A stretch of DNA of 54,860 nt from Flavobacteriaceae bacterium. Its GTDB lineage: Bacteria > Bacteroidota > Bacteroidia > Flavobacteriales > Flavobacteriaceae. Numbering within the stretch: the first letter of the stretch is position 1; the number at the start of each line of letters is the position of its first letter. Below are positions 16,296 to 16,829 of this stretch, piece by piece. A model generated the notes under the pieces. The model searched no databases, was not told where the DNA came from, and was given only the letters and a program-made list of their open reading frames with translations. The stretch is taken from contig JABDLA010000035.1 of assembly GCA_013001965.1 (NCBI GenBank), positions 1 through 54,860 of the forward strand, read 5' to 3'. Both the position numbers and the translations under genes were made by a program.

Positions 16296-16356
16296 AAAAG
16301 CCTGATAATTTTCTTAAAAAAGTAAACTTTCTACAAAAATTTCAAGCTTTATTTTG

Positions 16357-16431
16357 TCGGGGTGGCAGGATTCGAACCTGCGACCTCCGCGTCCCAAACG
16401 CGGCGCGATAACCGGGCTACGCTACACCCCG
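16357..16431 (-). tRNA. tRNA-Pro (anticodon UGG)
   Basis: Reverse complement CGGGGTGTAGCGTAGCCCGGTTATCGCGCCGCGTTTGGGACGCGGAGGTCGCAGGTTCGAATCCTGCCACCCCGA folds as a cloverleaf: 7-bp acceptor CGGGGTG/CACCCCG, anticodon arm CCGCG-TTTGGGA-CGCGG, T arm GCAGG-TTCGAAT-CCTGC. Confidence 0.97.
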
Positions 16432-16670
16432 AATTGATTATCTTCTAAATATCTTTTAGCTCCTCTTTTCTTGATTTTCTTTTCCAATAGAAGAGCTTTT
16501 GAACGTGATTCCAACTCAATTTTCCAAATCAATTTCCAGGGAATCCCTGATTTTGTTGATTTTACATGACCTAAATTATGTCTATCAAGTCGTTTGCTTA
16601 TATTTTCAGTTTGTCCAACATAGTACTTTTCTCTTTTGAAACTATATAATATGTAAACAAAATATTTCAT
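16422..16670 (-). CDS. GIY-YIG nuclease family protein (82 aa); stop codon inside the tRNA-Pro
   Basis: MKYFVYILYSFKREKYYVGQTENISKRLDRHNLGHVKSTKSGIPWKLIWKIELESRSKALLLEKKIKKRGAKRYLEDNQFGV. YVYIL..YYVG motif, Arg and Glu positions of GIY-YIG/URI domains. The ORF-track start at 16772 extends into the tRNA relic; ATG at 16670 is preferred. Confidence 0.88.
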   Translation of the reverse strand: MKYFVYILYSFKREKYYVGQTENISKRLDRHNLGHVKSTKSGIPWKLIWKIELESRSKALLLEKKIKKRGAKRYLEDNQFGV

Positions 16671-16680
16671 CTTTTGGGTG

Positions 16681-16698
16681 GTCACGCCTCGGCGTGAC
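16681..16698. repeat. Palindromic hairpin replacing the T arm in the tRNA relic
   Basis: GTCACGCC-TC-GGCGTGAC, perfect 8-bp stem. Confidence 0.85.
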
Positions 16699-16727
16699 GA
16701 CCTCCGGGTCCCAAACGCGGCGCGATA

Positions 16728-16745
16728 ATAACGCCAAAGCGTTAT
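16728..16745. repeat. Palindromic hairpin inserted in the D-arm region of the relic
   Basis: ATAACGC-CAAA-GCGTTAT, perfect 7-bp stem. Confidence 0.8.
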
Positions 16746-16763
16746 AAACCGGGATGAGACCTG

Positions 16764-16780
16764 CCACGCCAATGGCGTGG
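16764..16780. repeat. Palindromic hairpin inserted near the 5' acceptor of the relic
   Basis: CCACGCC-AAT-GGCGTGG, perfect 7-bp stem. Confidence 0.85.
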
Positions 16781-16800
16781 TACAGCCCGAAAAACGACTG

Positions 16801-16829
16801 CAAATATATGGCTTTCTTTTGAATTCAAA
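16801..16829 (-). promoter_or_regulatory. Bacteroidota-type promoter upstream of tRNA relic / GIY-YIG / tRNA-Pro
   Basis: Minus strand TTTG-N17-TATATTTG, matching the Bacteroidota TTTG...TAnnTTTG consensus, about 11 nt before the relic 5' end. Confidence 0.55.

Follow-up and report, generated by a model that had tools for sequence, protein, structure and literature searches.

A small GIY-YIG nuclease gene of a Flavobacteriaceae bacterium, set between a tRNA-Pro relic and an intact tRNA-Pro(UGG), is on balance probably part of a selfish, homing-like cassette that lives on tRNA genes by means of homologous recombination and without an integrase. By analogy, the cassette is best read as a chromosomal and minimal functional counterpart of the phage enzyme SegB. 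The locus lies in the stretch of 54,860 nucleotides that was analyzed (the window). A promoter-like motif, the relic, the ORF, and the intact tRNA follow one another on the minus strand, at the coordinates and in the order that the original prediction had given for a nuclease gene bracketed by two tRNA-Pro copies behind a tRNA-style promoter. The parts are the following.

16801..16829, minus strand: promoter-like motif TTTG-N17-TATATTTG of the Bacteroidota -33/-7 type (motif match)
16676..16789, minus strand: tRNA-Pro relic with arms swapped or interrupted (first base 16789, last 16676; alignment)
16764..16780, minus strand: palindrome CCACGCC-ATT-GGCGTGG, replacing the D stem of the relic
16729..16744, minus strand: palindrome TAACGC-TTTG-GCGTTA, after t22 (end of the D loop; fold z -6.9)
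16704..16720, minus strand: kept tRNA-Pro anticodon arm of the relic, CCGCG-TTTGGGA-CCCGG
16682..16697, minus strand: hairpin TCACGCC-GA-GGCGTGA, taking the place of the T arm of the relic
16422..16670, minus strand: GIY-YIG ORF of 82 aa, Pro lineage (ATG 16670, stop TAG 16424-16422; Pfam PF01541, 6.4e-15; catalytic residues kept)
16422..16431, minus strand: overlap of ORF and tRNA, the last 10 nt of the ORF being nt 1-10 of the tRNA
16431-16356/16357, minus strand: intact tRNA-Pro(UGG) (ARAGORN; Rfam 67.8 bits against a 29-bit cut-off)
16309..16355, minus strand: tRNA 3' flank common to the copy on contig C141, and the 3' end of the duplicated cassette (sequence comparison)

The ORF begins 5 nt beyond the last base of the relic, and its stop codon is T8-A9-G10 of the intact tRNA-Pro. 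The relic aligns with t1-51 of tRNA-Pro at a score of 31.6, compared to 11.1 for the best of eight other tRNAs; its 31-nt stretch t21-51 is 97% identical to tRNA-Pro, and the anticodon arm is preserved but for one change. It differs from a tRNA decayed in the usual sense: clean palindromes stand where the D stem and the T arm should be, and a third palindrome follows t22. Chance is excluded as the source of this layout because the same layout is found at a tRNA-Ser of the same genome and in dozens of other genera. In that second case (locus L001, at tRNA-Ser(UGA)), a promoter, a hairpin-bearing tRNA-Ser relic, a GIY-YIG ORF, and an intact tRNA-Ser follow one another.

A 12-sequence GIY-YIG profile, used for genome scans at a threshold of E<=1e-8, finds matches in 114 of 151 genomes of the family, 68 of 146 in the order, and 92 of 149 across the phylum. 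A tRNA lies within 250 bp of 96 of the 176 distinct ORFs, where random placement would lead one to expect ~1% (a rough figure that takes about 45 tRNA genes in 3.5 Mb), and it is on the same strand in all 96 cases. That small Bacteroidota GIY-YIG ORFs often adjoin tRNAs is also stated in the original prediction. The proximity declines with falling similarity, from 74/100 among the closest relatives to 20/49, 2/21, and 0/6, a gradient that is partly circular since the profile was built from tRNA-linked copies. The tRNAs that carry cassettes include those for Pro, Arg, Val, Leu, Ser, Ala, Met, Asp, Asn, His, Cys, and Phe. A GIY-YIG mini-element tied to tRNA genes, with a functional tRNA at one end, was what had been proposed for the window, and such elements recur throughout the phylum. 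They come in two layouts. Type A, to which the window belongs, runs from a relic of the 5' part through the ORF to the intact tRNA, as predicted, but its mirror image, Type B (intact tRNA, terminator, ORF, and relic of the 3' part), is about as common. Units also form tandem arrays of 2-8, with periods of about 300-400 bp, and presence across genomes is patchy, with stops in some of the family ORFs. An assembly artefact was considered and rejected, the layout being present in single-contig genomes (e.g., G027 and G144) and in many independent named assemblies. One array (L072 512-850, G082:C3) has five tandem relic-only units of tRNA-Arg(UCU), each ~78 nt long, ORF-less, and altered by a swap of the anticodon arm; they lie upstream of an intact tRNA-Arg(UCU), and nuclease-bearing units lie downstream of it. 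The relic-only units are possibly non-autonomous derivatives.

To test the relics themselves, the sequence beyond the ORF end that faces away from the tRNA was aligned to that neighboring tRNA in a scheme that tolerates long inserts. The cognate tRNA outscores the best of eight unrelated tRNAs in 89 of 96 alignments, and a score of >=22 is reached by 71 of the 96 cognate comparisons against 0.9% of the non-cognate ones. Type A relics mostly start at nt 1 and Type B relics mostly finish at the last nt. The inserts of Type A are palindromes after t22/23, often CCTGCCTGCCGGCAGGCAGG or near variants of it; palindromes are also found in the anticodon loop or the T loop of relics, and in Type B TCCCGA..TCGGGA replaces the anticodon arm. 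Hairpins of the kinds in the window recur in other relics and other genomes, so the relic-plus-palindrome architecture, which had been taken for something unusual, is not unique to the window. The 20-mer palindrome CCTGCCTGCCGGCAGGCAGG is present in 16 of 81 family genomes, with 12 copies in one of them (G083), and a reversed control gave none. Its copies outside ORF-bearing units lie within other tRNA relics or other inverted repeats, as if the palindromes insert into hairpin loops generally. Among the copies at L186-L201, for example, several are close to tRNAs or, as in L188 and L191, sit within the loop that a different inverted repeat forms. Random decay of the relics was rejected on two grounds: the inserts are palindromes at fixed loop sites of the tRNA, and the remainder is often identical to the tRNA.

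Two further relics, L118 and L128, are long copies of tRNA-Ser in which the aligned stretch departs from the intact gene only by palindromes placed exactly in the anticodon loop and/or the T loop (GTTC|GAATC); judging by their sequences, these appear to be very recent, clean insertions. Such sites bear on a different and rather unlikely explanation, in which the protein would be a structure-selective nuclease resembling Ssn or Slx1 that recognizes tRNA-shaped hairpins in single-stranded DNA during replication or DNA uptake. Relics and palindromes would then be the footprints of hairpin-loop cuts repaired by insertion or swap of a hairpin, and movement by homing would be secondary. In favor of this explanation are tRNA copies that differ only by palindromes in the D, anticodon, and T loops, the dispersed 20-mer, some of whose copies occupy the loop of another hairpin, and a protein fold nearest to UPF0213 and Slx1 and not to I-TevI. 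However, palindromes also occur without a nearby GIY-YIG gene, and shape alone hardly explains why each lineage keeps to its own tRNA.

That specificity is visible in the ORF tree, which tracks the neighboring tRNA: the amino-acid label changes 31 times on a tree of few columns and many weak forks, compared to a minimum of 60 changes in 300 shuffles, and the result holds when the labels are shuffled within layout. In a forward test, a profile of the Pro lineage was used to scan named genomes by protein pattern alone, with no tRNA information in the search, a design that for Pro is not free of the circularity of a tRNA-linked profile. A tRNA-Pro lies within 250 bp on the same strand in 63 of the 80 loci found. 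Among the remainder, four have a tRNA-Pro within 700 bp, eight are at contig ends, three are nearest to a tRNA-Ser(GCU), one has none, and one is unscored. In many genera (Arenibacter, Gelidibacter, Winogradskyella, Algibacter, and Aquimarina) the relic of this lineage is t1-51 of tRNA-Pro exactly, followed by TCACGC-loop-GCGTGA at the position of the T arm, then CCACCC, and then an ORF that terminates in ..FGV-stop within the tRNA. The TCACGC..GCGTGA hairpin type, to which the T-arm replacement in the window belongs, precedes the ORF in 52 of 77 loci of the lineage and is kept across genera. Of 11 loci that are informative on the anticodon arm, 10 have a relic whose arm agrees with the tRNA variant of the host itself, and one is unreadable; the relic is therefore either kept in step with the resident tRNA or made from it. 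Recent movement between genera was sought in the Pro lineage and not found. Very similar ORFs of the lineage are confined to near relatives, so recent intergenus transfer is not evident and long vertical persistence also fits.

One could consider that this family of ~80-residue GIY-YIG proteins has diverged into lineages, each of which reads a single tRNA gene. The arm-swapped copy would be a conserved working part (a recognition handle or an immunity copy), made anew again and again from the host tRNA, and the palindromes would be interchangeable arms. We regard this as possible, at somewhat less than an even chance. A domesticated host function seems improbable. The relic would here act as RNA, a tRNA-like leader or trailer by which the nuclease is controlled or the state of the tRNA sensed, as in a defense or stress device, and arrays would raise the dosage. 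The median dN/dS of 0.21, which points to purifying selection on the ORF, would suit such a function, and so would the retention of a relic concerted with the host tRNA, the hairpin conserved across genera, and the ability of several relics to form a cloverleaf in which the T arm is the swapped one. It is difficult to reconcile, however, with the patchy presence and the empty sites, with a relic found on either side of the ORF (5' or 3'), with the many relic units that have no ORF, and with the stops in some ORFs. In annotation, arm-swapped relics have a practical consequence. ARAGORN labels the Type B relics L010, L030, L033, and L049 tRNA-SeC(tca) or tRNA-Stop(tta), and false selenocysteine or suppressor tRNAs of this origin may stand in public Bacteroidota annotations.

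Selfish cassettes that home on tRNA genes should leave sites with and without the gene, and the place downstream of yqeY, where a tRNA-Arg is found in 28 of 30 loci, has both when compared between genera. There is no ORF at 26 of these 28 (three of them with short relics), while one holds a Type A unit and one a Type B unit; Type A also occupies the site in two further genera (L011 and L068). Empty sites with a single tRNA therefore exist, as the original prediction had anticipated, and the presence of both layouts at one place in different genera indicates that one tRNA can be occupied in different ways.

The genome of the window has further traces. An identical second tRNA-Pro(UGG) gene stands on another contig (G000:C141:17312-17387) and adjoins tRNA-Ser(GCT). 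It is preceded by two relic units, 96% and 89% identical to window positions 16791-16675, whose ORF is deleted save for its C-terminal tail. The stretches common to the two loci are 16791-16675 and 16448-16309 (89-96% identity), and the promoter region is not among them. Since other genera have Ser(GCT)-Pro(UGG)-Arg(UCT) clusters, the window locus is read as a dispersed extra copy of the cassette together with its tRNA, as the sequences suggest. The idea that relic and tRNA are repeats left by insertion or duplication is borne out insofar as nuclease-less relic units exist on C141, but with the ORF tail kept these look like deletion products and not like a duplication that came first. Relics without an ORF are also present elsewhere in the genome, clear for Thr(GGU) and Gly(GCC) and weaker for Leu(UAG), Ala(GGC), and Pro(GGG). 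The relic units on C141, and ORF-less arrays such as the five units of L072, speak for passive duplication, in which tRNA genes and palindromes make unstable tandem duplications unaided and the GIY-YIG gene has no part in this but is carried along. This is a very improbable account given the tight pairing of ORF and tRNA, the match of lineage to tRNA, the selection on the ORF, and the ORF tail retained in deleted units.

Two other observations concern C141 and its ends. A GIY-YIG gene of another subfamily (L002 1380-1960) lies there without a tRNA, flanked by repeated CCCTGAAACRAGTTCAGGG palindromes, possibly a parallel pairing of nuclease and palindrome. Tandem repeats of ~50 bp (TTATCAGGATCACCGAGTGAAGCGAGGTAATCCAAAGCGTTTTTTTGAAAA) extend from the tRNA-Pro at the end of C141 (L290 1200-1459) and recur before the tRNA-Arg(UCU) at the end of C129 (L292 1-170); they probably mark an assembly break within a Ser-Pro-Arg cluster.

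The protein has the domain with the catalytic Tyr, Tyr, Arg, and Glu by which the GIY-YIG superfamily is defined. Residues Y6, Y17, G19, R27, H31, and E63 are invariant in 12 sequences, with G19 at 90% or more in a further comparison. Its AlphaFold2 model (pLDDT 92.5) is closest among solved folds to UPF0213 BH0048 and then to Slx1, with I-TevI weaker, and a profile search agrees (best PDB match 1zg2 UPF0213, 2.8e-8). Its 82 aa make up the catalytic domain and leave no space for a DNA-binding domain apart from it. A search for phage or plasmid relatives at 1e-5 found none; the sole phage-family match is a weak homing-endonuclease profile (phrog_314, E 7.9e-4), and an approximate, consensus-like family query against phage proteins gave distant matches only. 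Three other types of element were rejected. An endonuclease of a group I intron in a tRNA does not fit a continuous tRNA, and in the window Rfam sees the tRNA alone and no intron family, with TIGR01453 well below its cut-off. As the only gene-like ORF of the cassette is the GIY-YIG one, there is neither the tyrosine integrase of a tRNA island nor the Y1 tyrosine transposase of a REP/RAYT system.

In the homing-like reading, the nuclease would cut or nick its cognate tRNA gene, or the hairpin of that gene when single-stranded. Repair from a cassette-bearing copy could set relic and ORF before the intact tRNA, or ORF and relic behind it, and with the unit placed beside the intact gene the host would keep its tRNA. 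Through the direct tRNA repeats, arrays could then gain or lose units, shed the ORF, or be excised, and gene conversion would hold the tRNA sequence of the relic like that of the host. With its palindromes the relic would no longer work as a tRNA and may also withstand the nuclease. The intact neighboring tRNA is also a candidate target, which would have to escape cutting, and this counts against the homing model. As for expression, the tRNA-type promoter could drive a transcript of relic, ORF, and tRNA from which RNase P would free the tRNA. The pattern TTTG-N16-20-TAnnTTTG has just two matches in the window on both strands, one of them the promoter-like motif, and no TAnnTTTG stands between the relic and the intact tRNA-Pro. 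There is thus no second motif to suggest a separate promoter for the tRNA, in keeping with its proposed dependence on transcription through the nuclease ORF. However, an identical tRNA-Pro(UGG) elsewhere means that the cell need not rely on this read-through.

SegB of phage T6, a homing endonuclease of the GIY-YIG type, cuts inside tRNA genes with the motif RAWTSGAAC, and its nuclease activity is required for tandem repeats of tRNA-Tyr and segB, which arise through microhomology between the tRNA 5' end and the segB 3' end (PMC13096335). SegB of T4 and T6 is a free-standing homing endonuclease of the tRNA region (PMC13096335, citing Brok-Volchanskaya 2008). The motif is the reverse complement of the T-loop sequence GTTCSAWTY. 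A T-loop-only immunity model based on it is not general, as many Type B relics have an intact T loop. The cassettes have the elements of SegB in the same relation, which is why nuclease-stimulated recombination at the cognate tRNA gene is proposed for them: a GIY-YIG enzyme adjoins tRNA genes, the tRNA 5' end and the nuclease 3' end have sequence in common, and tRNA and nuclease form tandem units, with cutting and amplification known for SegB and presumed for the cassettes. They differ in that they lie on bacterial chromosomes and encode a catalytic domain of 82 aa in which no DNA-binding domain is visible, where SegB has about 220 aa. Their lineages are each tied to one tRNA, their relics are arm-swapped and palindromic, and no close sequence relationship to SegB was detected. 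Like other free-standing homing endonuclease genes, the ORF stands outside introns and inteins beside its target, here presumably the tRNA, and there are sites without the gene (26/28 at yqeY-tRNA-Arg, between genera). The cassettes are best taken as a variant of free-standing GIY-YIG homing systems and not as a wholly new kind. A search of the open-licence literature for bacterial tRNA/GIY-YIG relics found none, and within that literature the tRNA-specific class is apparently undescribed.

If the homing-like reading is true, one phylum carries throughout a chromosomal, integrase-free class of tRNA-anchored mobile cassettes, and the SegB result, that a GIY-YIG enzyme amplifies tRNA genes, would reach from phages to bacteria. 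Very small nucleases that are apparently split by target tRNA make the rules of target choice testable. The cassettes would also explain where false tRNA-SeC and suppressor-tRNA calls and broken assemblies at Bacteroidota tRNA arrays come from.

Three other systems invite comparison. The Ssn family comprises site-specific single-strand GIY-YIG nucleases with dispersed target repeats; the window protein is likewise a small one-domain, UPF0213-type GIY-YIG protein, and hairpin-like repeats lie around its gene and are dispersed. The cognate repeat of the cassettes is a tRNA gene, however, they form arrays and duplicate the tRNA, and they are known from sequence, whereas cutting of single-stranded DNA is known for Ssn. 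Integrative elements anchored at tRNAs land in a tRNA gene by means of tyrosine integrases, and the tRNA is still functional afterwards. The cassettes also use a tRNA gene and leave it functional, but without an integrase, in a unit of about 0.3-0.4 kb, and with a relic that is a long arm-swapped copy at either end. In REP/RAYT systems, short dispersed palindromes are linked to a small nuclease gene, a Y1 transposase. The cassettes pair dispersed palindromes with a small nuclease gene as well, but theirs is a GIY-YIG gene, and it is tied to tRNA genes.
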